The notes under the pieces: model-generated
Databases searched by the model: none
Told to the model about the DNA's origin: nothing
What the model saw: the letters and a program-made list of their open reading frames with translations, nothing else
Assembly (NCBI GenBank): GCA_900556795.1
Contig: USQD01000022.1
Coordinates: forward strand, 1 to 13,644
Reading direction: 5' to 3'
DNA from: an uncultured Prevotella sp.
GTDB lineage: Bacteria; Bacteroidota; Bacteroidia; Bacteroidales; Bacteroidaceae
Length of the DNA: 13,644 bases
Program-made: the position numbers and the translations under genes
Shown here: positions 1 through 13,611 of the stretch, in pieces
Numbering within the stretch: the first letter of the stretch is position 1
Layout: each line of letters opens with the position of its first letter

Positions 1-5
1 AATTT

Positions 6-11
6 CCTCCT
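6..11 (-). promoter_or_regulatory. possible ribosome binding site of an off-window gene
   Basis: On the minus strand this reads AGGAGG followed by AAATT up to the window edge. A perfect Shine-Dalgarno core about 60 nt past the stop of the flippase-like gene suggests that a further minus-strand gene starts just beyond the left edge, which would continue the operon. No start codon is visible, so this rests on the motif and its placement alone. Confidence 0.3.
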
Positions 12-69
12 TTTTATTATTTTTTTCGTCTATGGACGAAAATCTTAAGCAAGAAAGATTGCCTCATTC

Positions 70-1095
70 TTATTTCTTAGCAATCCATTTCGGCAAAACC
101 AAGGTGCCCATTACCAGGAATGGGTAATAGAAGATGGCGCGCCAGAGCATGGCGGCAAGGATGGCTACAGAGGCATCGGGCAGGAAATCGGCATAATAAA
201 GGCGGAACATCAACTCCGCCACGCCGCTTCCGCCGGGCGTAGGACTCAGAATGGAAATCATCCACATCACCCATTGTCTGCACCACGCCACCAGCATGTT
301 GCCCTGACAATGGAAGGCTACGAGAATGGCTACTACAATGGCGAATCTAGACAACCACGCCAGGGAAGTATACCCCATCAGCTGCAGCCAAAATCTTCCA
401 CCCTCCTGCTTCGCCTCTTTCGAAGCCATCGTCATCTCCTCAGAGAACTTCTCTACCTTGGGCAGGAATCTATGAAGGAAAGGAATCTTGCAGCATCCCT
501 TCAATACCCAGCCCAGAATCTGAGGGCGATGCAATAACAGGAGGTAGAGAATGGCGGTCCAAACAGCCACGATAAGGGTGCTGATGATGAAGATGACCTG
601 CACTCCGCCCTTGATCCATTCGTTCGTTGCATCCGCAGAAATTCCCACCTCATCTGCCAAACTGAAAAGCAGATGCGATGGAACACAGAAATAGAGCAAC
701 AGGCAGCTGATGGCAAGAAAAGCCTCGTCGGCAAGCAGGGCTGCAAACATGGTGAAGATACTTCTGCCCATCGAAATTCCCTCGCGGTTCAGATAGACAA
801 AGGCCAAACCGCTTCCACCCACCGCGGAAGGAGTGACGGCAGAAGTAAACTCGCAGAGCACATTGATGCGAAACCCCTGCGCTATCGACAACTTGCGCTG
901 ACAAAGATGTCGGAAGCGAAGGGTGAGCATCAGATTCTGAACCGCAAAGAGCAACACGCCCATTACTACCCCCAGGAAGAACCTGGGAGACAAATCTATC
1001 CTGCTCAAAGCTTCCACATCAAACTCCCGAATCATCATTCCAGCGATGACCACCAGTCCGATGGAAGCCGCCAACCACAAATGCCATTTTTTCAT
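70..1095 (-). CDS. flippase-like integral membrane protein (LPG_synthase_TM / UPF0104 family)
   Basis: This 341-residue polytopic membrane protein has hydrophobic segments near residues 6-22, 38-58, 112-138, 163-188, 240-262 and 308-336. Two signatures of the family (PF03706; the membrane domain of MprF, also YbhN/AglD-like proteins) are visible: TPSAVGGSG at residues 88-96 and SPTPGGSGVAE at 284-294. Characterised relatives move or synthesise lipids, for example lysyl-phosphatidylglycerol in MprF; stand-alone bacterial members are usually described as putative lipid flippases. The soluble aminoacyl-transferase domain of MprF is absent, so lysylation is unlikely. It is the last visible gene of a unit with two glycosyltransferases, 49 nt after the GT4 gene, which suggests that it handles the glycolipid or lipid-linked glycan they make. 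That role is inferred from context; the family assignment is secure. Confidence 0.85.
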   Translation of the reverse strand: MKKWHLWLAASIGLVVIAGMMIREFDVEALSRIDLSPRFFLGVVMGVLLFAVQNLMLTLRFRHLCQRKLSIAQGFRINVLCEFTSAVTPSAVGGSGLAFVYLNREGISMGRSIFTMFAALLADEAFLAISCLLLYFCVPSHLLFSLADEVGISADATNEWIKGGVQVIFIISTLIVAVWTAILYLLLLHRPQILGWVLKGCCKIPFLHRFLPKVEKFSEEMTMASKEAKQEGGRFWLQLMGYTSLAWLSRFAIVVAILVAFHCQGNMLVAWCRQWVMWMISILSPTPGGSGVAELMFRLYYADFLPDASVAILAAMLWRAIFYYPFLVMGTLVLPKWIAKK

Positions 1096-1144
1096 ATTAC
1101 TCTCAAAATAAAACTATACCTTATTATATATAGTAATATAACGA

Positions 1145-2329
1145 TTAAATGGCCAATCTATTTTGTTGTCTGTCAATTAAATGCTGATATCTGTCCAAAA
1201 CTTCTACAGCAATGTCCTCCCAAGGGCGCACCAGGGTCTCTGCTGCTCCCTTTGCCGCCCAGGAAATGACGGTTGGACGCTCCAGAATATAACGGAGTCG
1301 GTTGGCAAAGGCAGTTACATCGTTATCCGAAAGGAATCCGTTGATTCCATTCTGGATGATTTCCGCCGTATTGCTGCCCCTAGCCACGATGGAAGGCGTG
1401 AAGAGCGAAGCAGCCTCTCTTACCACCAATGGCGCATTATCGTAGATGGATGGGAAGAGGAAGAGATCGGCTGCCGTATAGATGGTCTGCATCAGTTCGC
1501 GGGACTGCACGCTACCGAAGAAGGTTACCTTATCCATGCGGTAATCGCTGTTTCCCGACAAACCGAGTTTTGCCGCCATCGCCTGCATCTCTGTTCTTGC
1601 GTAACCATCGCCCACGAAAAGGGCATGATAAGGCAAATCCTTCACCTTGGCTAAAGCCTCGATGATGAGCTTTACGTTCTTCTCCCAGATATGCTGACCC
1701 ACGAAAAGGAGCAGAGGTTCATCTACGGCTACATAAAGCTCGTTCTTGGCTGCCCATTTCATCTCATCGGTATAAGGCGCATCGGCAAATTCGGTTCCGT
1801 TATCCACCACTTCGTAGGTTCCCTTGTAGCCATACTCGCGCAAAGTTTCGCCCACGGAAGCCTGAGGCACCCACACCTCATCTACGCTCTCGTAAAACTT
1901 CACCACCTTGCCCACGAGATAATCCACCAGAGCCTTATTGGGAATCACCCGTTCGAAATCGTCACGATATTTGGAATGAAAGGTTGCCACCAATGGAATG
2001 CCCATTCTGCGAGCCATCTTCAGGGCGAAATCACCCGAAGAGAAAGGACAATGGGCGTGTAAGATTTCAAAATTCTGAGCAGCTACCTGCTTCTGGAACT
2101 TGAAATCGAGCGATGGGAAGCCATAGCGGTAAGGATGGCGACCGGGAACCGGGAACGAGCGATACTGGAAGACGGAATAAGGAAGCTGAGACTCATCGAG
2201 TCCTGGCATTTCCGGGGTTACTACCGCCACGTCCCTGCCCTGCTGGTAAAAGCAGCGAGCCAAATTGCTTACCGTGAGTGAAACGCCATCCATGACGGGT
2301 GGAAAACATTCATTGAACAATCCTATCAT
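1145..2329 (-). CDS. GT4-family glycosyltransferase, lipid glycosyltransferase-like
   Basis: This 394-residue cytoplasmic or membrane-associated GT-B enzyme has an N-terminal acceptor domain starting with the loop FPPVMDGVS (residues 9-17). The segment FHSKYRDDFERV (117-128) is typical of diacylglycerol glucosyltransferases and related enzymes. The C-terminal nucleotide-sugar domain starts near FVGQHIWEKN (209-218). The usual EX7E motif appears as DX7E (D297 and E305, in YDNAPLVVREAA). Length is normal for GT4. Related enzymes transfer glucose, galactose or mannose from a nucleotide sugar to diacylglycerol, ceramide or a lipid-linked glycan; the Bacteroides alpha-galactosylceramide synthase also belongs to this broad family. 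The gene lies between an exported phosphatase and a flippase-like protein, with a 73-nt AT-rich gap upstream in which I saw no TAnnTTTG box, so it is probably transcribed from the promoter in front of the GT28-like gene. The exact acceptor and sugar cannot be read from the sequence. Confidence 0.85.
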   Translation of the reverse strand: MIGLFNECFPPVMDGVSLTVSNLARCFYQQGRDVAVVTPEMPGLDESQLPYSVFQYRSFPVPGRHPYRYGFPSLDFKFQKQVAAQNFEILHAHCPFSSGDFALKMARRMGIPLVATFHSKYRDDFERVIPNKALVDYLVGKVVKFYESVDEVWVPQASVGETLREYGYKGTYEVVDNGTEFADAPYTDEMKWAAKNELYVAVDEPLLLFVGQHIWEKNVKLIIEALAKVKDLPYHALFVGDGYARTEMQAMAAKLGLSGNSDYRMDKVTFFGSVQSRELMQTIYTAADLFLFPSIYDNAPLVVREAASLFTPSIVARGSNTAEIIQNGINGFLSDNDVTAFANRLRYILERPTVISWAAKGAAETLVRPWEDIAVEVLDRYQHLIDRQQNRLAI

Positions 2330-2402
2330 AATCTGAAAATCTTATTTTGTTATTATCCTATTTTTGCGTAATATAAAAGCTATTTGAGAATCTTAAAATC
2401 TT

Positions 2403-3401
2403 CTATTTAAGAATCTTATAAATCGGCGAAGCCACCGATTGCTGATTATTATCATTCGTAAACGGAACCTTCAGGATGCTGGCGATGGTGGGAGCCACCT
2501 GCTTGGTGTAGATGGTTCTGCCCCCTTCCATTTCTCCCAGATGCTGGATGTCTTTCCCGAAAGCCACCAGCCAGGTTTGGTTGCTGCCCTTAATTCTTCT
2601 GCCGTGTTCCGCCCAAGAAGCCTGGGAATCTACTTCGCCTCTGTTGGCATGAACGCCCAGGCTCTCTCCCCTGCCATGATCGCAGGTGATAAGAAAGGTG
2701 GTGTTCCCCTTGTAAAATGGGTCTTGCTGACAGCATTCCCATAACTGTCGAATAAACTGGTCGTTCTGATGAGCAGCATTCAGATACTCCTGCCATTTGC
2801 CATGATGTCCGTAATAATCCGTCTCGCAAAACTCTACAAAGAGAAGCTTGGGATGCTTCTCCTTGAGGGTTTTCAAGGCGCGGTTCAAAGTCACACTATC
2901 ATTTCTAACTTGCTTGCTCACCCTGTGAGGAGAGCGGAAATCCACGGGCAATTCGCTCCTGCGATAATTCAGGATATAAGGAACCACATCCCAACTCGCC
3001 ACGGCACTCACCCTGTCCTTATACTCAGAACAAGCCTCAGCCAATTCCAGAACCGAGCGGTTGGGGTTATACTGCTTGCGGTTGTCGAAGATGTGCTCAT
3101 CATTAGTCACACCACAGAGCATCTCGCTGTAACCGGCATAGGATTTCCAAATGCCGTTTGCCACCTCCATCTTCGATTTCCGGTTGCGGTTGCCAATCAT
3201 GCAGCCTTTCTTCCTGCCCATCTCCCAGAGAAACGGCATCAGACTGTCGCGTCTGGCGCCCTCAAACACCTCCTGCCATCTTAAACCATCAATGGCAATC
3301 ACTACCACTCGCGCCTCCTCCTTCTTGCTATCCTTGCCATACACGGCGAGCAGGAACAACAAGGGAAGAAGCAGCAACAATGGAATCATTTTCTTCTTCA
3401 T
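2403..3401 (-). CDS. exported alkaline phosphatase-superfamily phosphatase/sulfatase-like protein
   Basis: This 332-residue protein begins with MKKK and a strongly hydrophobic stretch (residues 6-20), a signal peptide or anchor, so the enzyme acts in the periplasm. The alkaline phosphatase superfamily metal ligands are in order: D38 (VIAIDG), D195 and H199 (ETDYYGHH), D241 and H242 (TCDHG), and H266 (AEHG). The nucleophile should be a serine in the SYAGYSE segment, S87 or S92. It hydrolyses a phosphate (or less likely sulfate) ester; the substrate is unknown. The start is supported by AGGAGA 9 nt upstream, lying inside the end of the preceding glycosyltransferase gene; the two coding regions overlap by 74 nt in different frames. 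Losing the overlap would remove the signal peptide, so the overlap is probably real. Position between two glycosyltransferases suggests a lipid or glycan phosphate substrate, which is inference. Confidence 0.8.
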   Translation of the reverse strand: MKKKMIPLLLLLPLLFLLAVYGKDSKKEEARVVVIAIDGLRWQEVFEGARRDSLMPFLWEMGRKKGCMIGNRNRKSKMEVANGIWKSYAGYSEMLCGVTNDEHIFDNRKQYNPNRSVLELAEACSEYKDRVSAVASWDVVPYILNYRRSELPVDFRSPHRVSKQVRNDSVTLNRALKTLKEKHPKLLFVEFCETDYYGHHGKWQEYLNAAHQNDQFIRQLWECCQQDPFYKGNTTFLITCDHGRGESLGVHANRGEVDSQASWAEHGRRIKGSNQTWLVAFGKDIQHLGEMEGGRTIYTKQVAPTIASILKVPFTNDNNQQSVASPIYKILK

Positions 3402-4506
3402 AAGCCTGGTTCTCCTTTCTATGATAATAAGTTTCGTAAGCGTTTTCTATGGCGGCGATGATTCGGCTTTCAGCATGGTTCTCCCACATTCTGAACTCCA
3501 CATCTTCCTCGTAATCACGGGCAAAAGCCTTCAGTTTATCGATATCGAAATCCTCGCTCACCACGCCAGCCATCTCTCTTTCCGCATCCATCGCATTACA
3601 TTCCTGTTCTACATGAGCCGGAATCAGCATGCATGGCTTGCCCATATAGAGCGCCTCGCAGACGCTCTCGAAGCCGGCGGTGGTGGCGAAAGCCTTGCAG
3701 CCAGCCATCATCTTGAGGAACTTCTCGTCGTTGATGCGATGGAAGGTGAGCGTATCATCTACCATCAGTTCTTCAGGCGCATCCGGCTGATCCCAGAAGA
3801 AATGGAGACGGGTATGGGGATGCTTCTCGTGCCACGCCTTCACATCCTCGGCAAATCCGGCATTCAGCATATAGCCCATGATGTAGTCGCCATGGTGGCG
3901 GATGATGGTCTTGGCTTCCTGACGGAGCAACGGTGGAACTACCTTGATGCCGTGCACAGGATCATCCTCATAGTCACGGATGGAGAGCGCCAACTTGGCT
4001 GTGGCTCCCATACAGGTGATACGGGTAAAGAATTTCAATAAGGATTCTGGTACGGAATACTTTCCAGGCATCTGGAAAGAGGGATGGAGGAAGAGGTACT
4101 GATGACCGATGCAAACCTCTGGGATTCCGAAACGGAAAAGGGAACAGGTAATGCCACACAACACCTCGTAGAAATTGATGATGATGTCGGCTCCGCTCTC
4201 CTGGATATTCTTTCGTATCAAATGGATACTGGAAAGATAGCTCGGAGTAAGAAGCATGTTGTAAGTCAGGGAGCGCAACAGATTGAACTTACGGTTGTCC
4301 TTAGACGGCAAGAAATTAGGACTGTCGAAAACCTCGATAGGAGTACCTATCTGATTCATGAAGAACTCAGGAATCACCCTGTTCTTGCTCTTGCCCACTA
4401 AAACCTTCACTACTTCATGACCCTCGTGCAGAAGCATCTGCTTAAGCGCCAACGCCTGGGTGAGATGACCTCTACCCTCTCCTTGAATTACAAAAATTAC
4501 CTTCAT
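3328..4506 (-). CDS. MurG/GT28-like glycosyltransferase
   Basis: This 392-residue GT-B protein has the N-terminal glycine-rich motif QGEGRGHLTQA (residues 8-18), as in MurG, MGDG synthases and related enzymes. A C-terminal donor-binding segment carries ATTAGFESVCEALYMGKP (274-291) and then PAHVEQECNA (296-305). This pattern matches the Glyco_trans_1_3/GT28-like group, whose members transfer sugars from nucleotide donors to lipid acceptors. The organism's housekeeping MurG would sit in a dcw cluster, and none of that surrounds this gene. It is the first gene of the unit; a TACCTTTG -7 box lies 77 nt upstream of its start. The last 24 codons run under the start of the phosphatase gene, and the C-terminal tail after about residue 365 looks unstructured, perhaps a recent extension. 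An alternative role is capsule or exopolysaccharide assembly. Confidence 0.8.
   Translation of the reverse strand: MKVIFVIQGEGRGHLTQALALKQMLLHEGHEVVKVLVGKSKNRVIPEFFMNQIGTPIEVFDSPNFLPSKDNRKFNLLRSLTYNMLLTPSYLSSIHLIRKNIQESGADIIINFYEVLCGITCSLFRFGIPEVCIGHQYLFLHPSFQMPGKYSVPESLLKFFTRITCMGATAKLALSIRDYEDDPVHGIKVVPPLLRQEAKTIIRHHGDYIMGYMLNAGFAEDVKAWHEKHPHTRLHFFWDQPDAPEELMVDDTLTFHRINDEKFLKMMAGCKAFATTAGFESVCEALYMGKPCMLIPAHVEQECNAMDAEREMAGVVSEDFDIDKLKAFARDYEEDVEFRMWENHAESRIIAAIENAYETYYHRKENQAYEEENDSIVAASSLVVPARRVWQG
3411..3416 (-). promoter_or_regulatory. Shine-Dalgarno site that fixes the phosphatase start
   Basis: The minus strand reads AGGAGA with 9 nt to the ATG at 3401. It lies inside the coding region of the upstream GT28-like gene. 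Shine-Dalgarno motifs are uncommon in the rest of this window, so its presence supports the embedded start and translational coupling. Confidence 0.55.
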
Positions 4507-4583
4507 TTTTCTTTATACATCTTTAAACATCTGATATTTTGCTGGCGAAGCGGCAGATGCAGATCATCGCCCCTTTCCGAGTG

Positions 4584-4639
4584 CAAAGGTATAAGTTTCA
4601 TATTTCAAAGATGTTAGAGAAAAATGAAGATAGGGTTAA
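4584..4639 (-). promoter_or_regulatory. promoter and 11-bp-repeat operator of the glycosyltransferase operon
   Basis: Reading the minus strand from 4639, TTAAC-N6-TTCAT is followed by exactly 32 nt and then the -7 box TACCTTTGCA, whose TACCTTTG core occupies 4591-4584. Within the 32 nt a third 11-bp-phased element, CTAAC, lies 21 nt before the -7 box, where a Bacteroidota -33 TTTG would be expected. The operator overlaps the very end of the pafA-like gene, just before its stop codon. Spacing and repeat order match the two divergent promoters at 6307-6438, which suggests one shared response regulator. The -7 box is well supported; the operator is inferred from the shared geometry. Confidence 0.6.
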
Positions 4640-4642
4640 AAA

Positions 4643-6268
4643 CTAGAATATCGGCTGACCTACGCAGCCATTTGGCGCCTGAACATGAAGCAGGGCGGCG
4701 ATGGTTGGCACAATATCGGTCATGAATGTCTGTCTGGTGGTTGCACCGTGCTGGATTCCCCAACCCATGAAAACCAGCGGAATATGGGTGTCGTATGGAT
4801 TCCACTCGCCATGGTCGGTTCCCTTCATGCCGTGGGCATAGTAATTCGGCTTCAACACGATGGCCACATCACCGCTACGCTCACGGTTGTAACCATTCAC
4901 AATGCGGAACTTCACATCCTCAGGAATGCTCTCTGTCATCGTCTTCTCCATATCGCAGGCGTACTGCACGCAGCTGTCTTCCTTCAAAACATCCACCACA
5001 CTCTGCTTGATCTTGGCGAAATCCAACTTGTTTTCCTTGATGATGTTGCGATTGAAAAACACCTGATAGTTCATCACGGTCTTCACCAAATCACCCACGT
5101 TAGGATACTCCTGAGCCAGGGTTTGATTCAGCTTCTTAGCCATCGCATCACCATCCCAACTGCCCGCAGGAATGCGGCGGTCTTGCAGGAAACGGGCGTT
5201 GTTCATCGCTCCATGATCGGCACTCAGGAAAACCAGATAGTTGCCCTTGCCCACCTTCTCATCGAGATAAGAAAGAAAATCGGCAATCGCCTTGTCAAGG
5301 CGCAGATAAGTATCCTCAGTTTCTACGGCGTGGGTTCCCACCTGATGACCGATATAATCGGTGCTGGAGCAGCTTACCGCCAGCAAGTCGGTTTCATCAT
5401 CAGCACCCAACTGCTCTCCGTCTATCGCAGCCTTCGCCAAATCTATCGTCAGCGAATTGCCGAAAGGAGTCTTGCGGATTATGCTGTAACCATATTTCTT
5501 ATAAAGGGCTGGGAGATTGAGCGGCAGCGTAGCCTTCACACCCTTGCGGATTCCATCCTCATACTCATTCTCATCTTGCGTACTCTCGATGTAAGTATTC
5601 TTAGGATAGAGCGTGCTCCATTTTTCCGAAAGATAACGCTCTGGCAGATGCTGGTTGTTGAAAGCATCCACCCACTTTGGCAACAGGTTCATATAATAAG
5701 AACTGTTGATGAACTTGCCGCTCTCATCATCAAACCAGTAGGCACCATTTGGATTATGTCCGGCAGGAAGGATGGAAGCACGGTCTTTTAAAGCCACACC
5801 CACCACCTTGGCTCTGCCGTTGGATGCAATCTTCATCTCATCGCCAAGAGTCGTAACCCAAAGGTTTCTAGGCGACATCAAGCCCTCCTTACTGCTGGAA
5901 CCCACCGGTTTCACGGTTTCATCATCCGTGCAATACACCTTCTTGCCATTCTTCACAAAATTGTTTCCGGCGATTCCGTGGATAGAAGGCACACTACCGG
6001 TATAGAGACAAGTATGACCGACGGCTGTAACCGATGGAACATACGGAATTCGGGTGTTTTCGCAAGAGAATCCCTCGTTGAGCAACCGCTTGAATCCTCC
6101 TTCTCCATAGCGCTTCTGATAGCGATAGAGATAATCCCATCGCATCTGGTCAACCACAATACCCACTACCAGTTTAGGGCGCTCAACGCCTGATGCATTC
6201 ACCTGCTGGGCAGAAACCATTCCGCATCCCAGGAATGACATCGCAATAAAACTAAATACCTTATTCAT
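4643..6268 (-). CDS. pafA: PafA-type alkaline phosphatase (phosphomonoesterase)
   Basis: This 541-residue periplasmic enzyme starts with a signal peptide (residues 1-20, ending VSA before QQ). The alkaline phosphatase superfamily metal sites are complete: D40 (VVDQMRWDY), D304 and H308 (STDYIGH), D351 and H352 (SADHG), and H486 (TDHG). T81 in PSVTAVGHTC is the expected nucleophile. N102 or N103 (GNNF) and the K161-x-R163 pair (LKDRAS) match the Asn, Lys and Arg that define the PafA monoesterase active site described in Elizabethkingia (Flavobacterium) meningosepticum. Length is as expected for the family. The family removes phosphate from a broad range of phosphomonoesters. In some Bacteroidota PafA is made regardless of phosphate level, but here the promoter carries a tandem-repeat operator shared with neighbouring units, which suggests regulation. 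No hairpin terminator separates it from the downstream glycosyltransferase operon, so read-through is possible. Confidence 0.9.
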   Translation of the reverse strand: MNKVFSFIAMSFLGCGMVSAQQVNASGVERPKLVVGIVVDQMRWDYLYRYQKRYGEGGFKRLLNEGFSCENTRIPYVPSVTAVGHTCLYTGSVPSIHGIAGNNFVKNGKKVYCTDDETVKPVGSSSKEGLMSPRNLWVTTLGDEMKIASNGRAKVVGVALKDRASILPAGHNPNGAYWFDDESGKFINSSYYMNLLPKWVDAFNNQHLPERYLSEKWSTLYPKNTYIESTQDENEYEDGIRKGVKATLPLNLPALYKKYGYSIIRKTPFGNSLTIDLAKAAIDGEQLGADDETDLLAVSCSSTDYIGHQVGTHAVETEDTYLRLDKAIADFLSYLDEKVGKGNYLVFLSADHGAMNNARFLQDRRIPAGSWDGDAMAKKLNQTLAQEYPNVGDLVKTVMNYQVFFNRNIIKENKLDFAKIKQSVVDVLKEDSCVQYACDMEKTMTESIPEDVKFRIVNGYNRERSGDVAIVLKPNYYAHGMKGTDHGEWNPYDTHIPLVFMGWGIQHGATTRQTFMTDIVPTIAALLHVQAPNGCVGQPIF

Positions 6269-6306
6269 TTCTTTCTTTAAAATTACTGTAATACTTTTTA
6301 CCGCTG

Positions 6307-6362
6307 CAAAGGTATTTAAAGGATGTTGCTATCGTGTTACAAAGAGGTGAAAGAAGAGTGAA
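6307..6362 (-). promoter_or_regulatory. promoter and 11-bp-repeat operator of pafA
   Basis: On the minus strand, TTCAC-N6-TTCAC (6362-6347) is followed by exactly 32 nt and then TACCTTTGCA, whose TACCTTTG core is at 6314-6307, a match to the Bacteroidota TAnnTTTG box. A third phased element GTAAC falls 21 nt before the -7 box. A TTTG exists upstream, but 25 nt from the -7 box, longer than the usual 19-21 nt, so the promoter may need an activator. The arrangement mirrors the divergent receptor promoter. Confidence 0.65.
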
Positions 6363-6382
6363 GAAGAAATACCGGTTTTAAC

Positions 6383-6438
6383 TTCATCTTTTCTTCACCC
6401 GAAAGAAACCGTGATGTAACAAAATCATTCTACTTTTG
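6383..6438 (+). promoter_or_regulatory. promoter and 11-bp-repeat operator of the TonB receptor/GDPD unit
   Basis: The plus strand reads TTCAT-N6-TTCAC (6383-6398), exactly 32 nt, then TACTTTTGCA, with the TACTTTTG core at 6431-6438. A third phased element GAAAC lies 21 nt before the -7 box, where no TTTG is present. The repeats would lie roughly 45-60 bp upstream of the expected transcription start, a usual activator position for OmpR/PhoB-class regulators. The geometry is identical to that of the pafA promoter on the other strand. Confidence 0.65.
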
Positions 6439-6475
6439 CACCCGAAAAAAAATTATGCAAGATAATAAATAGGTT

Positions 6476-9202
6476 ATGAACAAATTAAAGATTGTATTGA
6501 TGGCTTCCCTGCTCGTGCAGGGTGCCACATGTCTAGAGGCGAAAGCCGACAACACTCCTGAAGGTAACAAAACTAATTCTAAAGCATTGGGCGTGAATGC
6601 CGTAAGCGGTAAGGTGACCAACGAACAGGGCGAAGCTTTGCCGGGCGTGGTAGTTCGCTGCGGCAACACGAATGTACAGACTGACTTGAATGGCGAGTTC
6701 CACGTCAACGTGAACGATGGCGACAAGCTCACCTTTACTTATATAGGTTACAACACCATCACCAAAGATGCTGACGACAACAACATGAAGGTGGTGATGA
6801 AGGAAAACACACAAGCCCTGGGCGAGGTAATCGTTACTACCCAGAAGAAGAAGCAGAGCAGCCTGGAGATTCCTGTGGCTGTAAGCGCCGTAACCGGTAG
6901 CGTGATGGAGAAACTCAACCTCCACCAGATGGACGACGTGGCTCAGTTTACCCCGGGCGTTCAGATTCAGCTGCAGAGCCCTAACAACCCCGGCTACGTA
7001 ATTCGTGGTGTGACTTCTGATGGCGGCGAGGCTTATTCCCAGCCAAGAGTTTCCGTGTTTATGGATGGCGTTTCAACTTCCCGAAGCCGCTCTTCTGCCG
7101 TAGAACTTTTCGACCTGGAGCGACTGGAAGTAGTAAAGGGGCCTCAGGGAACCCTCTTTGGAAGAGGTGCTGAGATTGGCGGCATCAACATCATCCGCCA
7201 CAAACCCGTAAACGAACTCAAGGGCGAACTCTCCATGAACTACGGAAGCTACAACCAGCGCCAGGTAACAGGTTTCATCAACACCCCAATCATCAAGGAC
7301 AAGCTTGCCAACCGCTTTGCCTTCGACTATGATGCCCGCGACGGCTTCATCAAGAACGAGGCAGGTGGCAGACTGAACGGCAAGAATGCCCTGGCTTTCA
7401 GAAACTCTACCCAATGGTGGGCTAACGATGATACTTCTGTAGGCGTGGTACTCGATTATCAGCACGATGATTATCCAGGCACTTCCTTCCACAGCATCAA
7501 TCCAGCCTTTGGCAATAGCGACCCTAACAGTCCTGCCAACCTGGAAGCCGGCAAGCAGTTGGGCATCAAGCGAAACGTAGGTGGCGCCCTGCTCAACATC
7601 GAGCACAACTTCGGCAAACATTGGGCTTTCAATTCCATCACCGGTTTCAGAGCCTTCAACAGCGATGAGCATTTCGATGCAGACGGTACTTATCTCCCAC
7701 TCCTGCTCTGCGAGGAAAAGGAAAAAGGAACCCAGTTCAGCCAGGAATTCCGTTTCAATTATGATGATAAGAAATTCTTCTCAGGCTTCTTGGGAGCCAA
7801 CTATTTCTACGAGAATTCATCGCAGGATGTCAACGCCAAGGCGAATCTCCAGTACCTCTATCCGGTGTTTATCCAGAAGAGTGTGAAGGCTTCGCTCAGC
7901 AGTCAGATAGATAATGTGAAGGGATTGCTCAGCCAGTATCTTCCTGCCGATTATCAGCCGATGGTGGATTTGACACTCTCACAACTGATGAGCAAATGGT
8001 TCCCAGAGAGCCCGGAAACAGATGCGGACGGCAAACTGAAACCACAGAGCGCCACTCCTGATATCTATGGAGATTTGAAGACTGCCCTGGGTGCTGTGGG
8101 AATGGATTTAGACCAGGTTCTGGCAGGCATGGGCGATAACGGCAAGCTGATTCAGGCTACCCTGCAGGGCATTTCGGGCAAAACGCTCGATACTGCTTAT
8201 ACCGAGCAGGGCAAGAATTACGGTACCAACCAGGCTATTGAGGTCTTCGCTGATGGAACCTTCAAGCTCACCAGGAACCTGAACTTCACCCTGGGTATCC
8301 GCGGAACTTACGAGAACCAGGAAACAGGCTATTCATCTTCTACCATACCAAGCATGTTTGGTGCCGTGCTTTATCACCCTACCGATGGTGGCGCCAAGGT
8401 TACAGCCAAGGACAGCTACTGGTCATGGGTAGGTCGTGCAGCCCTCAACTATATGATTGGCCGCAACAACATCTACGCCAGCGTGGCTCGTGGCCGTCGT
8501 CCGGGAGTGCTCTATTTCAACAACGATCCTAAGGATTTCGAGACTCTCGACCCGGAAATCATCTACAGCTACGAGGCTGGCGTGAAGGGAAGCATCCTGG
8601 AAGGCCGTCTGAACTACGACATCTGTGCTTACTATTATGACTGGTATAATTATCAGACATCGGTTTTCAACGCCACCACCAGCAAATTTGAATACGATGA
8701 TGCAGGTCGTGCCCACAGTCTCGGTCTGGAGGCAAGCATCAACTATTCTCCATGCCGCTACCTCAATCTCTTCGGCAACTGGTCGTACATCGAGGGCAAG
8801 TTCAACGACAAGGATGACAACGGAAACGCACAGCTCTATGCCGGCAACCGCTTCCGCCTTACTCCAAAGAACAGTTTCGCCATCGGTTTCGACTTGAACG
8901 TGCCAGCCGGCGAGAAGGCTTCCTTCTATCTCCGCCCTACCTATTCATGGAAGTCGAAGGTATTCTTCGAGGAGAGCAACGAGTCTGAGTTCACCCAGGA
9001 TGCCTACGGATTGCTCAACTTCACCGCCGGTTATCGTTTCCAGCCAGGTAAGGTTTATTATGAAATCGGTGCCTTCGGCAAGAACGTGCTCGATGAGAAA
9101 TACATCGTGGATGCAGGTAACTCAGGCCGTCAGATTGGTTTCCCAACCTACATTGGCGGTTCCCGTTCCGTGGTCGGTGTGATGTTTAAAATGGGATTCT
9201 AA
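6476..9202 (+). CDS. TonB-dependent outer membrane receptor without SusD partner
   Basis: This 908-residue protein has a signal peptide (about residues 1-24), a carboxypeptidase-regulatory-like domain (about 43-110, VSGKVTNEQGEALPGV), a plug domain (about 116-240, with LGEVIVTTQ, IRGVTSDGG and the conserved VVKGPQGTLFGRGAEIGGINI), and a beta-barrel ending in an aromatic residue (VMFKMGF). It should bring a ligand across the outer membrane using TonB energy. An insertion of about 140 residues near 446-585, helical and not strand-like, probably forms a large extracellular loop. The barrel resembles siderophore/small-molecule receptors more than SusC, and no SusD gene follows. The phosphodiesterase gene 49 nt downstream and the shared operator with pafA suggest a phosphate-containing ligand such as glycerophosphodiesters; this is inference. 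ATG 6476 is chosen because it gives the signal peptide. Confidence 0.9.
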   Translation: MNKLKIVLMASLLVQGATCLEAKADNTPEGNKTNSKALGVNAVSGKVTNEQGEALPGVVVRCGNTNVQTDLNGEFHVNVNDGDKLTFTYIGYNTITKDADDNNMKVVMKENTQALGEVIVTTQKKKQSSLEIPVAVSAVTGSVMEKLNLHQMDDVAQFTPGVQIQLQSPNNPGYVIRGVTSDGGEAYSQPRVSVFMDGVSTSRSRSSAVELFDLERLEVVKGPQGTLFGRGAEIGGINIIRHKPVNELKGELSMNYGSYNQRQVTGFINTPIIKDKLANRFAFDYDARDGFIKNEAGGRLNGKNALAFRNSTQWWANDDTSVGVVLDYQHDDYPGTSFHSINPAFGNSDPNSPANLEAGKQLGIKRNVGGALLNIEHNFGKHWAFNSITGFRAFNSDEHFDADGTYLPLLLCEEKEKGTQFSQEFRFNYDDKKFFSGFLGANYFYENSSQDVNAKANLQYLYPVFIQKSVKASLSSQIDNVKGLLSQYLPADYQPMVDLTLSQLMSKWFPESPETDADGKLKPQSATPDIYGDLKTALGAVGMDLDQVLAGMGDNGKLIQATLQGISGKTLDTAYTEQGKNYGTNQAIEVFADGTFKLTRNLNFTLGIRGTYENQETGYSSSTIPSMFGAVLYHPTDGGAKVTAKDSYWSWVGRAALNYMIGRNNIYASVARGRRPGVLYFNNDPKDFETLDPEIIYSYEAGVKGSILEGRLNYDICAYYYDWYNYQTSVFNATTSKFEYDDAGRAHSLGLEASINYSPCRYLNLFGNWSYIEGKFNDKDDNGNAQLYAGNRFRLTPKNSFAIGFDLNVPAGEKASFYLRPTYSWKSKVFFEESNESEFTQDAYGLLNFTAGYRFQPGKVYYEIGAFGKNVLDEKYIVDAGNSGRQIGFPTYIGGSRSVVGVMFKMGF

Positions 9203-9215
9203 GACAATAAGTGCT

Positions 9216-9233
9216 ATAGAAAAAAGTTTCTAT
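9216..9233 (+). other. small intercistronic hairpin
   Basis: ATAGAAA and TTTCTAT form a 7-bp AT-only stem with a 4-nt loop between the receptor and phosphodiesterase genes. No T-tract follows, so it is not a clear terminator. It might reduce downstream expression or stabilise the receptor message, but it could be chance in AT-rich sequence. Confidence 0.3.
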
Positions 9234-9251
9234 GATAAAAAAATAAGAACA

Positions 9252-10010
9252 ATGAAAAGTATTTTGATTTATATGATGCTGTTGATGGGAGTGATTCTCC
9301 CTTCCTCAGCCAAGGATAGAGCCCAGCAGGTGATTGCCCACAGAGGCTATTGGAAGACAGAAGGTTCTGCTCAGAACTCCATCTCCTCACTTCAGAACAC
9401 CCACAGGATTGGGGTTTACGGCTCTGAGTTTGATGTTCACATCACCCGTGACGGCGAGGTGGTAGTTTTTCATGATGATGACGTAGATGGCATTAAGATA
9501 GAGAATGCCAACTATGCCGACATCAGAGACAAGCGCCTCAAGAATGGCGAGAAGATTCCTACCTTGAAGGAATATCTCGATGCAGCCAAATCATTGGGCG
9601 ATATGAAACTCATACTCGAAGTAAAGGAGCACATCCAGAAGAGCGATGAAGACCGCTGCATCGATGCCACCCTGAAGATGGTAAGAGAGGCGGGACTGGA
9701 AGCAAGAACAGAGTATATTTCCTTCAGCAAGCACTCCTGCGATTATCTGGTTCTCCACGCTCCAGGTGCCAAGGTTTCCTATCTGAACGGAGACCTCGCT
9801 CCGCTCGATGCCAAAGCAGCAGGTTATACAGGCATCGACTACGAAGACAGCGTCTTCTTAGACCATCCAACCTGGATCAAGGAAGCCAAGAAACTCGGTC
9901 TAATCACCAATGTCTGGACTGTCAATAATCTGAAAGCCATCAAATATTTCTTCAAACAAGGCATCGATTACGTAACAACGAATGATCCTGAAAAAGCCAA
10001 GGCTTTATAA
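9252..10010 (+). CDS. secreted glycerophosphodiester phosphodiesterase (GDPD family)
   Basis: This 252-residue protein has a signal peptide (about residues 1-20, ending PSSA) and is therefore periplasmic or surface-exposed. GDPD signatures are complete: catalytic H30-R31 (AHRG), metal ligands E59 and D61 (SEFDVH), second catalytic H74 (VVFHDD), E123 (LEVK), and the late VWTVN and DYVTTNDP segments. The family converts glycerophosphodiesters, the headgroups of deacylated phospholipids, to glycerol 3-phosphate plus an alcohol using a divalent metal. It lies 49 nt after the TonB-dependent receptor, and a strong terminator closes the unit, so the two are probably co-transcribed. Length is normal for a compact bacterial GDPD. 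Substrate preference cannot be read from the sequence. Confidence 0.92.
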   Translation: MKSILIYMMLLMGVILPSSAKDRAQQVIAHRGYWKTEGSAQNSISSLQNTHRIGVYGSEFDVHITRDGEVVVFHDDDVDGIKIENANYADIRDKRLKNGEKIPTLKEYLDAAKSLGDMKLILEVKEHIQKSDEDRCIDATLKMVREAGLEARTEYISFSKHSCDYLVLHAPGAKVSYLNGDLAPLDAKAAGYTGIDYEDSVFLDHPTWIKEAKKLGLITNVWTVNNLKAIKYFFKQGIDYVTTNDPEKAKAL

Positions 10011-10038
10011 CAGGGCTTTCACAGTCAGCAACCTTTTT

Positions 10039-10089
10039 CACTTTTCCAACTAGAGAAATATATTTCTCCAATTGGAAAAGTGTTTTTTT
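10039..10089 (+). terminator. intrinsic terminator of the receptor/GDPD unit
   Basis: CACTTTTCCAA (10039-10049) pairs perfectly with TTGGAAAAGTG (10072-10082), with an inner stem GAGAAA/TTTCTC inside the loop, followed by seven T residues. The T-tract is only on the plus strand; the minus strand reads into A residues, so termination is directional for the GDPD unit. Confidence 0.85.
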
Positions 10090-10127
10090 GCTTATAATCT
10101 CAATCTCAGAGTCTCAGTTGTTTCTAC

Positions 10128-10604
10128 TTACTTCTGCTCCACCTTTACTCCCGTAATGCGGCTCTTAAAATCGCCTGCCTTCTGGAGAGGGAACACCAGC
10201 GTGCGCTGATAATGCATCTTGGCTGAGGGATTATATACGATAGGCTGAGTGGCTGTAGCATCGCCCTTCTGTAATGTAGCCAGGTCTTTCTGCTGCATCG
10301 CATAAAGGGTGAGCGGACCAAGCTCCTCGCACAATTTGTCATTTACATAAAGACAGGTCTTCTTGTTGTCGCCCGTAATCGCCAGAGTTACCTTCCTGCC
10401 CTTCTCTACCCTGTAGTTGAACTTATTAAGATAACCCTCGTGGGCAAAACCAAGCTGGCCGCTTTCAGGGTCGGCAAGATAGAAGGTGGCGTTATCTGAT
10501 GAGAACAACACCGTGCCCTTTGCTTCATCGGCTCCATCAATGGTGAACTCCACCCGATAGCCATAGCCCACTTCCGGTATGGCAATCGCAGGTATGGTAA
10601 TCAA
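10128..10604 (-). pseudogene. 5'-truncated C-terminal fragment, probably of a GH20 beta-N-acetylhexosaminidase
   Basis: An open frame of 158 codons starts only at a TTG right after an in-frame TGA; there is no signal peptide or catalytic domain. The content is beta-rich and resembles the C-terminal concanavalin/LamG-like module found at the end of many Bacteroidota GH20 hexosaminidases: IPEVGYGYRVEFTID, FAHEGYLNKFNYRVEKG, LYVNDKLCEELGP, and an end YQRTLVFPLQKAGDF. I recognise this from family memory rather than a search, so GH20 is likely but not certain. The frame itself is intact to a TAA stop. The broken edge coincides with short inverted and direct repeats at 10598-10627. It is best read as a decayed remnant, though a short independently expressed carbohydrate-binding protein cannot be excluded. 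Confidence 0.55.
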
Positions 10605-10627
10605 TCACATCATTGATTAATTGATTA
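10598..10627. repeat. inverted plus direct repeat at the edge of the truncated gene
   Basis: TAATCAAT (10598-10605), a 6-nt spacer, then ATTGATTA (10612-10619), immediately repeated as ATTGATTA (10620-10627). The first arm overlaps the first codons of the truncated hexosaminidase-like frame. It could be a recombination scar or an operator for the divergent gene at 10694; the sequence does not decide between these. Confidence 0.5.
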
Positions 10628-10693
10628 TCAAAATTCACGATAAAAGATAAAATTCCTTATTTCACATAGTAAAGAAATTTTAAAGTACCAAGA

Positions 10694-11110
10694 ATGATGA
10701 AAAAGAAAATATATTTTGCAGGTTCCATTCGTGGAGGTCGTGACTTTGCCGATCTCTATAGAAAGATGATTGAACACATGCAGATGAAGGACATCGTACT
10801 GACCGAACATATCGGTCAGGCTGGCCTCAACCTCAAGGAAAAAGGAAGAACCAGCGATGCAGAGATTTATAACCAGGATACAGCATGGCTCCAAGAGAGC
10901 GATATGGTCGTAGCAGAGTGTAGCAACCCTTCGCTAGGCGTGGGCTATGAACTGGCCTACGCCGAAAGTAGAGGTATTCCTTGCCACATCTTCTATGACA
11001 AGAGCAAGACTCAGCTTTCAGCCATGCTTACAGGAAACCCCTACTTCGATATTTATCCTTATCAAACAGAGGAAGAACTGTTCTCTTTACTGGATAAGGT
11101 ACTATCATAG
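10694..11110 (+). CDS. DNPH1/Rcl-like 2'-deoxynucleoside 5'-phosphate N-hydrolase
   Basis: This 138-residue cytoplasmic protein of the nucleoside 2-deoxyribosyltransferase superfamily resembles mammalian DNPH1 (Rcl) more than the transferases. Shared segments are IYFAGSIRGGR (residues 6-16), VLTEH (35-39), NQDTAWLQESDMVVAE (60-75), NPSLGVGYEL (78-87) and LSAML (108-112). Residues aligning with the Rcl active site are present: Y7, R13, H39, D62, S80, E86 and S109. Known activity cleaves the N-glycosidic bond of 2'-deoxynucleoside 5'-monophosphates to a free base and 2-deoxyribose 5-phosphate, for nucleotide-pool sanitation or salvage. Length matches the compact family. The start could be either of the first two Met codons. 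It stands alone on the plus strand between two minus-strand elements; no clear -7 box was found upstream. A phosphoribosyl/deoxyribosyl transfer role is the main alternative. Confidence 0.82.
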   Translation: MMKKKIYFAGSIRGGRDFADLYRKMIEHMQMKDIVLTEHIGQAGLNLKEKGRTSDAEIYNQDTAWLQESDMVVAECSNPSLGVGYELAYAESRGIPCHIFYDKSKTQLSAMLTGNPYFDIYPYQTEEELFSLLDKVLS

Positions 11111-11178
11111 ATCCTTTAAGATACCGATCATCTCCTGCCTCAAGTTTTCGGGTTTCAGCACGAATAAGCAATCCTTTT
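11105..11178 (-). pseudogene. possible C-terminal gene remnant (WYL-regulator-like)
   Basis: Between the convergent DUF4112 and DNPH1-like genes, one minus-strand frame reads KKDCLFVLKPENLRQEMI and then GILKDL before a TGA. It looks like a real protein C-terminus and resembles the terminal helix of WYL-domain regulators. It has no start of its own, and the frame is closed upstream within DUF4112. The stretch is short, so coincidence is possible. Confidence 0.25.
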
Positions 11179-11610
11179 TTAGAATAACGAAACAATCCAA
11201 TCATAAACCCAAGTGCTCAAACTGATGGCCCATGAGATAATCAGATAAATCAACCAGCAAAGCACGACGATGAATACTGCCGTCCAGAATGCCTTCTTGT
11301 TTACCTTGTTGATGATCTCCTTATCATCCTCGATATAGCCTGTAATCAGCTTCAAGTTTTCAACATACGAACGCTTGAAGACATCCAGCACATCACCAAT
11401 ATAGAAAGGTATAGCACCAATCAGCACATCCATCAGGATATTATAGATGACAGCCAATGTCAGCGGAATAGACTTAACCACGCACAGACTGTAATAGATG
11501 AATGGGAATGCAAACACGCTCGACAACGCATCACCGACACCGGCAGGAAGAACGAAACCAAGGATAGGATCCAAGAAATACTTGTCCATATACTTTGCCG
11601 TACCTACCAT
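11179..11610 (-). CDS. DUF4112 family membrane protein
   Basis: This 143-residue protein has the DUF4112 pattern: DPILGFVLPAGVGDALSS (residues 14-31, the family's glycine-rich hydrophobic start), and GDVLDVFKRSYVENLKLI (72-89), a conserved segment after the second hydrophobic stretch. Membrane segments lie near 29-48, 48-68 and 108-131. Biochemical function of the family is unknown. The ATG lies 6 nt after the stop of the 50-residue ORF, so the two are almost certainly co-transcribed and perhaps translationally coupled. The family call is from motif memory. Confidence 0.8.
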   Translation of the reverse strand: MVGTAKYMDKYFLDPILGFVLPAGVGDALSSVFAFPFIYYSLCVVKSIPLTLAVIYNILMDVLIGAIPFYIGDVLDVFKRSYVENLKLITGYIEDDKEIINKVNKKAFWTAVFIVVLCWLIYLIISWAISLSTWVYDWIVSLF

Positions 11611-11616
11611 CAGACG

Positions 11617-11769
11617 TTATGATGGCATGTTCATCATCTTCTCGCGCTTTGCAGCTTTTTTATCAGCCCTCGCCTGTTCTTTGGCAAGAGCCGCCTCTCG
11701 CTTTTGATCTTCCTTAGCGAAATCCATACCCAAATCAGCCTGGGCTTGCTGTCTTCTTGAACTTTCCAT
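11617..11769 (-). CDS. 50-residue basic, helical small protein of unknown function
   Basis: A 50-codon frame begins MESSRRQQAQ and ends KMMNMPS, with a lysine/arginine/glutamate/alanine-rich middle (EDQKREAALAKEQARADKKA) that should form one long amphipathic or coiled-coil helix. It starts 5 nt after the upstream gene's stop and ends 6 nt before the DUF4112 start. This tight packing without overlap is the main evidence that it is real. There is no signal peptide or membrane segment. It may assist the DUF4112 membrane protein next door; nothing more can be said. Confidence 0.65.
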   Translation of the reverse strand: MESSRRQQAQADLGMDFAKEDQKREAALAKEQARADKKAAKREKMMNMPS

Positions 11770-11774
11770 ACGCC

Positions 11775-12365
11775 TTATAATTCTATTTGTTTCTTACCAT
11801 TCATAAATTCTGCGAACTCCTGTTCCGAAAGAGAGTAACCGCTCAAATCGCTCATCAATTCCATAGCCTTCTTACGTTCCTCCTCGCTGCCTGCCAGATT
11901 GATACGCTTGAACACCTCACGAAGATAAGCACTCTTGTTGTCTATCTTAGCCATCTCACGCTTAAATTCATCAGTATGTTTCTTCAACTCCTTATCGTAT
12001 GCAGCAGAAGCCAGATTTTCGTTGAGTTGCTGCGCTTTGAGCTTAGCAAAACTGTCAAACAGGGCGATGCCTTTCTGTAAGGATTGTTCCATGGCACCAG
12101 TTGCCTGCATCAACTCCTCCTCACTATATTCAGCAGGATTTTGCTGTGCAGCATTTCCCTCTATCTTCTTCTGATTCTTAGAATATTCAGATACACCATC
12201 AAGCAGATTTCGTGCCATTTCCTTATTTGCATGGAGATTATCTGCCAAAAAGTCTGTGAACTGCGAGAGATTCTGCTCTACATCTGCAGACAATTGAGTT
12301 TTATCCTTGATGTTCGGAATATCAACTGTATGCACCAACTTTTCCAAAGTGCTTGTCAAGCACAT
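11775..12365 (-). CDS. helical protein of unknown function, N-terminus disrupted by a likely frameshift
   Basis: The open frame gives 196 residues, almost entirely helical and charged (for example SAAYDKELKKHTDEFKREM), ending LSEQEFAEFMNGKKQIEL. I do not recognise a domain. The first available ATG (12365) gives an odd start, MCLTSTLEKL. A better start lies in another frame at 12396, after an A-rich leader: MAQMNLTPLDDVL. Removing one T near 12358-12361 would join it as DDVLTSTLEKLVHTV, a plausible amphipathic helix. The 196-residue frame is therefore probably most of a protein of about 206 residues with a one-base insertion, either a true mutation or an assembly error. It is downstream of the AAA15 ATPase and 5 nt upstream of the small basic ORF, suggesting one cassette. 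Confidence 0.65.
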   Translation of the reverse strand: MCLTSTLEKLVHTVDIPNIKDKTQLSADVEQNLSQFTDFLADNLHANKEMARNLLDGVSEYSKNQKKIEGNAAQQNPAEYSEEELMQATGAMEQSLQKGIALFDSFAKLKAQQLNENLASAAYDKELKKHTDEFKREMAKIDNKSAYLREVFKRINLAGSEEERKKAMELMSDLSGYSLSEQEFAEFMNGKKQIEL

Positions 12366-12396
12366 CGTCCAATGGAGTAAGATTCATCTGTGCCAT
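12322..12396 (-). other. out-of-frame original start of the helical protein
   Basis: A 24-codon frame from ATG 12396 reads MAQMNLTPLDDVLDKHFG and stops at a TGA (12322-12324). The AT-rich leader just before the ATG fits Bacteroidota translation starts better than the context of ATG 12365. It is interpreted as the 5' end of the gene at 11775-12365, separated by a single-base frame change. An independent short peptide is the alternative. Confidence 0.45.
12349..12363. repeat. perfect 15-bp palindrome at the frameshift site
   Basis: GTGCTTG T CAAGCAC: 7-bp arms around one base. Removing the single base that would restore the reading frame makes the palindrome imperfect, which is what a quasipalindrome-templated insertion would leave behind. 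Confidence 0.6.
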
Positions 12397-12443
12397 ATAT
12401 TTTTTATTTATGTGTGAAGATAAGTAAAATGCTTCATACTAAG

Positions 12444-13598
12444 CTAAATAGTGAGATTAGATATAGTAGGAATAGCATCAAAGCGTCCCTGCAGATAAGC
12501 CTTCTCCATATCCAGCGTGTCCCGGAAATCCTTGAAATCAAACAGAGAATACAAATCACTGCTTCCATCCTCTCGCTTGTTCACGAAATACACCTGATCC
12601 CTTCGCTGGAAATCAGTGTTCAGCAAATGGGTGTTATGAGTGGTGTATATAAGCTGGGCATGGTCACTATGATTGAACATACCTATCACAAATTCCACCA
12701 GCTGGGTATGGAGACTGTTGTCTATCTCATCGACAAGAAGCATCTTGCCTTCATGGATAATACCAATCATCCTCACCATCATCCGGAACAAAGTCTTGGT
12801 TCCCTCCGACTCTTCCGTCTCGAAATCAAACGCAACGGAAGGGTTGGTACGATGAAAAGTCGTGATGGCATTGTTCTGAATCTTGAAGTCTATGATGTCG
12901 CTATCTGCCGTTCTCAACACCTCCAGCATCTGCTCCTTTCGTTCCTTGAACAAATTATCCAGAGAATCAATGTTAGCCACCTGATAATCAAGCACGATGT
13001 CATTGCAGAAGAACAGGAAAATCTTTTGGGCTATTTCCCTGTCCATCTGACTGGCACGAGAAATATAGAGTGTCTTCTTCGATGTATTGTCAGCTACATC
13101 GAAAGGACGCTTGATGACAGTCTTAAACTCATAGATGTCTTTCTTCTCCGTTCCTCTGCTTTCATCACGGCTGAATACCAGCGACTTGCGACCATTCGGA
13201 TAATAGTACAAAGTCTCGGTGATGATTTCATCATGCATAAAGGAGAAGGAATACTCATACTCTACTCCATTCAGCAGGAAACGGATATAGAAAGAGCTTG
13301 GCTTATTGGCATAATCCTCAAACTTGAAAGGTGAGATGGCAAACCTGGTGTCAACATTATAATTATGTGATGAACGAACCATGTTCACACAAGCTCTGAT
13401 GGCTTTAATCACATTGCTTTTACCCGAAGCGTTGGCTCCAAATAAGGCAACGCTCTTCAACATCTGTTCTCCATCCACGGAAAACAGATTACCTTCAAGC
13501 TCCCTTGCCTTCTTTGTCTGAATCTTGGCAGCCTGCAAATCCAAAGTCACCTCGTCTCGAAACGAGAACATATTGCTTAAACGTATCTCTAAAACCAT
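12444..13598 (-). CDS. RloA-like AAA15 family ATPase
   Basis: This 384-residue ABC-type AAA ATPase (COG1106, RloA/AbiL-like) is complete. It begins MVLEIRLSNMFSFRDEVTLD, the usual start for this family. It has Walker A GANASGKS (residues 54-61), an ABC-like signature ESEGTKTL (263-270), Walker B MLLVDEID (286-293) and the TTHNTHLL segment (319-326). The C-terminal block RRDQVYFVNK, LYSLFDFK, YLQGRFDAIP is typical of RloA-type proteins. Relatives work in phage defence with a nuclease-like partner, classically RloB. No RloB-like gene follows here; the next gene, after 47 nt, encodes an unrecognised helical protein. The partner may be elsewhere, absent, or replaced by the downstream genes. The start is only 13 nt from the adapter sequence, so the promoter and any upstream gene are missing. 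Confidence 0.88.
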   Translation of the reverse strand: MVLEIRLSNMFSFRDEVTLDLQAAKIQTKKARELEGNLFSVDGEQMLKSVALFGANASGKSNVIKAIRACVNMVRSSHNYNVDTRFAISPFKFEDYANKPSSFYIRFLLNGVEYEYSFSFMHDEIITETLYYYPNGRKSLVFSRDESRGTEKKDIYEFKTVIKRPFDVADNTSKKTLYISRASQMDREIAQKIFLFFCNDIVLDYQVANIDSLDNLFKERKEQMLEVLRTADSDIIDFKIQNNAITTFHRTNPSVAFDFETEESEGTKTLFRMMVRMIGIIHEGKMLLVDEIDNSLHTQLVEFVIGMFNHSDHAQLIYTTHNTHLLNTDFQRRDQVYFVNKREDGSSDLYSLFDFKDFRDTLDMEKAYLQGRFDAIPTISNLTI

Positions 13599-13611
13599 TT
13601 TAACCTCGATA

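Follow-up and report, generated by a model that had tools for sequence, protein, structure and literature searches.

In Bacteroides fragilis, PhoB was reported in 2013 to bind the pst promoter in an electrophoretic mobility shift assay with a 512-bp fragment, and pst, a Pit-type permease, alkaline phosphatases and a porin were found to depend on PhoB; the parts of that study considered here contain no binding sequence (PMC3547664). The low-phosphate response of Flavobacterium johnsoniae includes induction of TonB receptors, PlcP (listed with pf12850) and a glycosyltransferase, while PafA was constitutive in the plant-associated strains studied, the same being suggested across the phylum; the parts of that study considered here hold no Pho-box motif (PMC8115612). 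PlcP, a phospholipase C of phosphate-starved marine bacteria, is often encoded in a glycosyltransferase operon with predicted Pho boxes, according to the sections of that report considered here (PMC4796936). Among the matches listed in the open full-text literature (a scope that leaves aside subscription papers and most preprints), no binding sequence of a Bacteroidota PhoB was present. The present study concerns a 13,644-nt stretch of DNA from an uncultured Prevotella sp. (assembly GCA_900556795.1, contig USQD01000022.1, positions 1 to 13,644; designated here as the window), in which the promoters of the alkaline phosphatase gene pafA, of a TonB-dependent receptor gene and of a glycosyltransferase operon carry direct-repeat arrays that very probably represent a Pho box in a Bacteroidota form.

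Repeat arrays in the window

The original prediction described each of these promoters as TTMAY-N6-TTCAY-N32-TACYTTTGCA. All three instances were found where they had been placed, and every copy of TTMAY-N6-TTCAY in the window (three) lies exactly 32 nt upstream of TACYTTTGCA. The claim made for TAnnTTTG boxes at unit starts was likewise borne out: of the seven such boxes in the window, those three bear the repeats, the other four showing 0, 2, 2 and 0 matching repeat positions. The full fixed-spacing consensus occurs three times in the window and in none of 600 dinucleotide shuffles. The two-repeat word alone, without spacing and box, is unusual to a moderate degree only, with three copies against a shuffle mean of 0.36 and one of 200 shuffles reaching three. 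The two-repeat description thus captured a geometry that exists, but overlooked half of the element. Two further in-register repeats lie within the 32-nt stretch, and each array therefore consists of four nnMAY units with an 11-bp period (6 nt between units), the last of which ends 10 nt upstream of the -7 box.

On the minus strand, the pafA array (6325-6362; units at 6358-6362, 6347-6351, 6336-6340 and 6325-6329) reads TTCAC-N6-TTCAC-N6-GTAAC-N6-GCAAC, followed after 10 nt by the -7 box TACCTTTG (6307-6314) and by pafA itself (4643-6268), the product of which scores 752 bits against the NF042991 cut-off of 650. On the plus strand, the TonB-receptor array (6383-6420; units at 6383-6387, 6394-6398, 6405-6409 and 6416-6420) reads TTCAT-N6-TTCAC-N6-GAAAC-N6-GTAAC, with the -7 box TACTTTTG (6431-6438) again 10 nt downstream, and precedes the receptor gene (6476-9202; PF07715, PF13715). 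These two arrays stand back to back, so that eight units are contained within 6325-6420. The third array, on the minus strand (4602-4639; units at 4635-4639, 4624-4628, 4613-4617 and 4602-4606), reads TTAAC-N6-TTCAT-N6-CTAAC-N6-GAAAT and is separated by 10 nt from the -7 box TACCTTTG (4584-4591) of the glycosyltransferase operon, whose first gene (3328-4506, minus strand) encodes a PF13528 protein.

Spacing and gene set across the Bacteroidaceae

The family set comprised 101 Bacteroidaceae genomes, among them G001, a metagenome-assembled genome (MAG; 59% complete) that is the nearest in the set to the window; for each gene family, the best-scoring loci, at most 30, were used (L and G numbers designate loci and genomes, respectively). 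The exact two-repeat pattern yielded 18 matches across these genomes, compared with 3 for the reversed pattern. Outside G001 there were 15 matches, of which five carry MAY in all four units (L059-L063) and two carry it in three units with a near miss in the remaining one (L056, L069); L057 is ambiguous, with three units, the third inconsistent, and a TonB receptor gene downstream, and seven resemble chance occurrences. Behind the seven good sites, at a distance of 36-107 nt, lie genes for four TonB receptors (L059-L062; confirmed by Pfam for L059 and L061, and recognized by N-terminal letters for the other two), two Pit proteins (L056, confirmed by Pfam, and L069, which is the same as Pit locus L198) and one protein without a Pfam match. 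The opposite-strand neighbour at L056 encodes PhoB (NF053854, 296.5 bits against a cut-off of 270). The two-repeat consensus, about half of whose non-G001 matches were apparently due to chance, was judged too narrow a search tool, and a four-repeat matrix was used instead.

A matrix derived from eight sites (the three of the window and five from the two-repeat pattern, none of them from pst or phoB) was applied with the period varied from 9 to 13 and the gap to the box from 6 to 14, at a threshold of 12 bits. The pst regions came from 20 of the 23 pstC-bearing genomes, the remaining three being examined separately, and the phoB set consisted of the 23 of 30 loci that were labelled by the gene-picking rule, with seven left out. 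A period of 11 with a gap of 10 was the optimum in all three gene sets, with 15 of 20 pst, 18 of 22 glycosyltransferase and 20 of 23 phoB loci reaching at least 12 bits, whereas the other 44 combinations gave at most 5, 6 and 3 loci, respectively.

With a 15-site matrix, to which seven pst sites had been added, the best site was located just before the first gene of the pst operon in 19 of 20 loci, at 15 bits or more in every case and with the ATG 22 to 84 nt downstream; this count includes the seven training loci, and the held-out pst loci give 12 of 13. The gene behind the site is pstS (PF12849 in both loci tested, L036 and L040), pstC (L042, L043) or a gene for a porin-like, outer-membrane-type protein of about 320-335 aa, for which porin models matched below cut-off or not at all in the four tested. 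PhoB, as defined by NF053854, is encoded in 63 of the 101 genomes, and for 25 of 30 loci the highest-scoring site lies ahead of phoB (10.1 to 28.6 bits, with the ATG 35-90 nt further on; 15 bits or more in 23 loci), while at L272 it stands before a pstS gene instead. For the remaining genes of the phoB loci, the upstream regions reached 8 bits in 3 of 58 cases, the highest being that of pstS. The enrichment upstream of pst that the original prediction had anticipated was therefore found for the fixed-spacing four-repeat site, and the same applies to phoB itself.

Furthermore, target genes were shown to co-occur with PhoB. Among genomes at least 90% complete, pstC is present in 23, of which 21 are PhoB-positive (P 6e-4), and the glycosyltransferase homologue in 23, all of them PhoB-positive (P 4e-6), although these P values assume an independence that the genomes do not have. 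The pstC loci of G019 and G038, two genomes without an NF053854 PhoB, are devoid of a site, their highest scores being 0.4 and -1.1 bits.

Among 30 PstS-like loci from the phylum, three from another class (L218, L219 and L220) carry TTAAC arrays with the same gap (22.7-25.2 bits), with four, three and three exact TTAAC units, respectively, which indicates that the geometry is probably not confined to the Bacteroidaceae. In L218 and L220, the gene behind the array passes PF07396, the model for phosphate-selective porins. L223 scores 15.2 bits, and the remaining 26 loci fall below 15.

Comparison with known Pho boxes

A set of 77 distinct sites, selected by score, gives a consensus of about KTMAY, GTAAY, KTMAY and GTAAYA for the four units, with a box of nAnnTTTG. 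In the fourth unit, G is present in 96% of sites and the second A of AA in 100%. Immediately ahead of the constant A, unit 1 has A at a frequency of 0.64 and C at 0.31, unit 2 A at 0.65 and C at 0.29, unit 3 C at 0.47 and A at 0.42, and unit 4 A at 0.87. The geometry of the originally proposed consensus was thus retained, but its letters proved too strict, with GTAAY and TTMAY being equally common and the -7 box varying in its first base. At the -33 position, 19-21 nt before the -7 box, TTTG occurs in none of the 77 sites.

In Escherichia coli, the pstS promoter reads GTCAT-N6-GTCAT-N6-TACAT-N6-GTCAC-N10-TATTTT and that of phoA GTCAT-N6-GTCAC-N10-TATAGT, while that of phoB is readable as TTCAT-N6-GTCAT-N10-CATAAT. 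For pstS and phoA, we take these to be the Pho-box bases and a -35 element to be lacking, the -10 boxes being presumed or assigned by ourselves. The sites described here share with them direct repeats in tandem at intervals of 11 bp (four at pstS), a gap of 10 nt to the -10 or -7 box, which was the sole outstanding spacing in the grid above, and their location before pst and phosphatase genes. They differ in that the half-sites are more often GTAAY or TTMAY than TGTCAY, with the strict E. coli half-site TGTCA(T/C) not being matched, and in that the promoter is of the Bacteroidota nAnnTTTG type. In the Bacillus subtilis PhoP box, four direct repeats resembling TT(A/C/T)ACA recur every 11 bp; it has the number and period of its repeats in common with the present arrays, and differs in coming from another phylum with another sigma factor.

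In E. coli PhoB, residues near 198-203 contact DNA bases in the complex, and the corresponding helix reads D192 R193 T194 V195 D196 V197 H198 I199 R200 R201 L202 R203. Under the selection rule, 20 of 35 loci yielded a Bacteroidota PhoB sequence, and the helix reads DRTVDVNITR in 19 of these and DRTVDVHIAR in one (L056, G095). Hence, DRTVDV is retained, whereas N and T take the places of H198 and R200 in 19 of the 20 sequences, a pattern that fits conserved docking on sigma combined with altered base reading.

The PafA, Pit and TonB-receptor genes

The closest relatives of the PafA protein of the window are encoded on an uncultured Prevotella MAG contig (99%) and in Segatella copri iA622 (96%). 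Perfect four-repeat sites precede pafA at the S. copri locus L072 and on the MAG contig (L071), and weaker sites (15.7-27.7 bits) were found at L078, L088 and L089. Across the 78 other pafA loci, representing 3.03 million positions on both strands, just three positions reach 15 bits, all of them directly upstream of pafA, two in Phocaeicola records and the third in a record from Bacteroides sp. For the 16 closer pafA loci taken from the family (L282-L297), the threshold of 12 bits is reached in six, namely L283, L284, L286, L287, L288 and L282, the last being the G001 copy of the window. Pho control of pafA everywhere was rejected, as a site of 15 bits or more is present in 5 of 80 loci only. 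Since the box is found in a minority of loci, such control seems to characterize certain gut lineages, in contrast to the constitutive PafA of F. johnsoniae (PMC8115612, in the parts considered here). The second PafA homologue of S. copri (L073, L074; 66% identity) lies in a locus without a 15-bit site, for which reason PafA paralogues may be regulated differently.

A 20-bit site was found in 4 of 11 loci encoding the long form of Pit (about 760 aa). In the window, a GDPD gene (9252-10010, plus strand; PF03009, glycerophosphodiester phosphodiesterase) follows the TonB receptor, and another lies beside the L063 site. The site in L063 is strong, with four repeats, and precedes a gene for a protein without a Pfam match (1587-2228), a counterpart of which follows a similar site in L205 (1585-2229); this protein of 213-215 aa is possibly an unrecognized member of the Pho regulon. 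Within the 12-kb stretch that also contains the L063 site, a 20.8-bit site (L315, 5594-5649; G084) precedes a reading frame of 1066 aa.

The glycosyltransferase operon

In the window, the PF13528 glycosyltransferase gene is followed on the same strand by genes for a type I phosphodiesterase family protein (2403-3401, minus strand; PF01663), a second glycosyltransferase (1145-2329, minus strand; PF13439/PF00534) and, as the last of the run, an LPG_synthase_TM family membrane protein (70-1095, minus strand; PF03706), the latter two being putative members of the transcript. The promoter site recurs in L330 with a matrix score of 46.6. At the opposite end of the window, the letters at about 13611-13644 resemble what we take to be an Illumina sequencing adapter, and the reading frame located there consequently starts in an assembly artefact.

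In other Bacteroidaceae, relatives of the PF13528 glycosyltransferase mostly sit behind a PF00149/PF12850 phosphoesterase gene, a family call that is based on Pfam for L155 and L167 and on the letters of the remaining loci. In 21 of 23 loci (L152-L174), the best site precedes the phosphoesterase gene (18) or the glycosyltransferase gene (3: L152, L163 and L173), with scores of 10.4 to 35.8 bits, 17 of them reaching 15. In L168, the best site is elsewhere in the locus and a second site of 22.6 bits precedes the phosphoesterase gene, while no site was found in glycosyltransferase locus L174.

The pairing of a phosphoesterase with a glycosyltransferase behind a predicted Pho box resembles the PlcP-Agt lipid-remodelling system, from which it differs in that the phosphoesterase is assigned here from its Pfam family and gene order, and in that the operon of the window contains a PF01663 phosphodiesterase instead (PMC4796936, in the sections considered here). 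The relatives display the calcineurin-like fold, the gene order and the box, and no PlcP-specific model was found in the profile runs. The gut phosphoesterase-glycosyltransferase operons probably swap phospholipids for glycolipids.

Segatella copri and other boxless loci

The nearest named genomes, S. copri iA622 and iAQ1173, were inspected separately. In iA622, the pattern with one mismatch allowed gave six matches, compared with two in the control; three are those of the window island, one was dropped and two lack matching units 3 and 4. The dropped site, common to two S. copri genomes (L207, L215), was set aside as its middle repeats form an inverted pair (GTCAC...GTGAC), TTTG is present near -33 and tiny reading frames lie behind it. 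This GTCAC-N6-GTGAC promoter, at about 1501-2000 of L207 and on the minus strand of L215, precedes very small, similar frames and probably belongs to a different regulator.

The pstC-like gene of iA622 (L328, G102:C31:18500-27500) was rejected as a Pho target. It has no site and lies near a gene for an EF-Tu-type GTPase (CysN-like by eye), and it may for these reasons not encode a phosphate transporter. The pstC-like genes of G019 and G038 score similarly to it and are also boxless, and such loci may serve another anion.

Nature of the regulator

The agreement of geometry, gene set, PhoB co-occurrence, the missing -33 element and the E. coli spacing argues for the element being a Bacteroidota variant of the Pho box. 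That the three promoters of the window carry a PhoB/PhoP-class Pho box, functioning in the manner set out below, is assigned a probability of about 0.9. The suggestion in the original prediction that the motif may be a Bacteroidota Pho box is thereby supported through its enrichment at fixed spacing before pst, long Pit, phosphatase genes and phoB, with the amendments that there are four repeats and not two, that the consensus is looser and that pafA is included in some lineages only.

Several observations weigh against this reading. The phoB promoters of S. copri iA622 and iAQ1173 (L320 and L319) are without a site (0 of 2, compared with 25 of 30 in the family), GTAAT words upstream of phoB in L320 being spaced differently, and the single pstC-like gene of iA622 has no site within the 9 kb around it. 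No site was found in 4 of 30 phoB loci (L271, L273, L275 and L276) and in 1 of 20 pst loci, and the pst promoter of the Phocaeicola genome G104 scores just 6.5. Sites of 15 bits are absent from 75 of 80 pafA loci, including that of the second S. copri homologue, sites of 12 bits from 10 of 16 closer family pafA loci, and of 19 loci for the short Pit (about 342 aa) just one shows a 20-bit site. For the window's TonB receptor, the 101 genomes contain one other homologue at E 1e-100 (G025; L322, L323), which is broken by a stop codon and has no 15-bit site. The eight-site matrix includes the glycosyltransferase promoter of the window, meaning that the glycosyltransferase set is not wholly independent. 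Finally, we infer both PhoB binding and the phosphate response of these sites from sequence.

Recognition by a different response regulator of the OmpR family that shares some of the target genes is improbable but merits most attention among the alternatives, as direct repeats with an 11-bp period are common among OmpR-class regulators and the S. copri phoB promoters are boxless. In the same phylum, moreover, the motif obtained for Riemerella PhoP by DNA affinity purification sequencing has a core of TTTAACA, which its authors compared with ArcA in the portion of the report considered here (PMC9603813). Such a regulator would, however, have to account for a gene set composed of phosphate genes and phoB itself, for target genes that track NF053854 PhoB across genomes and for an exact spacing held in common with the E. 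coli pstS and phoA promoters. It is considerably less probable still that the three promoters are recent copies of one another, their likeness then being uninformative as to regulation: they do lie within 2 kb and share the -7 box TACYTTTGCA, but the letters outside repeats and box differ, and this explanation is weakened by the occurrence of the array ahead of unrelated genes in other genera. Least probable, to the point of being negligible, is chance, by which AT-rich promoters would yield TTMAY-like words 11 bp apart, since the weakness of the two-repeat word in shuffles and the random appearance of 7 or 8 of its 15 matches in other genomes do not extend to the four-repeat form, for which chance is refuted by the shuffles of the full consensus and by the prominence of one geometry out of 45 in three gene sets.

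Proposed mechanism and implications

Under the Pho-box reading, PhoB probably binds the array and takes the place of the -33 element. Phosphate scarcity would lead phosphorylated PhoB to occupy the array with two dimers in tandem along one face of the DNA, where its contact with sigma would compensate for the absent -33 element. Transcription would then start at phoB itself, at pst with its porin-like gene and at Pit. It would likewise start at the genes for TonB receptors, which would serve organic phosphate and are joined by GDPD in the window, at pafA in some gut lineages, and at the phosphoesterase-glycosyltransferase operon, which probably exchanges phospholipids for glycolipids. The same-phylum PhoRB regulon of B. 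fragilis is comparable, as published, in its PhoB and in its pst and Pit targets (PMC3547664, in the parts considered here), and the low-phosphate regulon of F. johnsoniae in its TonB receptors, PlcP and glycosyltransferase (PMC8115612, likewise).

The wider proposal appears somewhat favoured, with distinctly less assurance than the Pho box as such: Bacteroidota would possess a Pho box of their own, in which four half-sites replace the -33 element, running a gut starvation program that includes phospholipid-to-glycolipid remodelling and, in Segatella/Phocaeicola-like lineages, phosphate control of an otherwise constitutive PafA. As the 11-bp/10-nt rule is common to E. coli and Bacteroidota, the contact between PhoB and sigma is suggested to be old, whereas the half-site letters and the promoter box have changed between the two.

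PhoB belongs here to the dominant gut phylum, and a matrix with few false hits would allow the Pho regulon to be read directly from genome sequence. Two predictions follow, namely that gut Bacteroidaceae have a lipid operon under phosphate control and that the control of pafA shifts between lineages, both of which may be tested in a tractable commensal.

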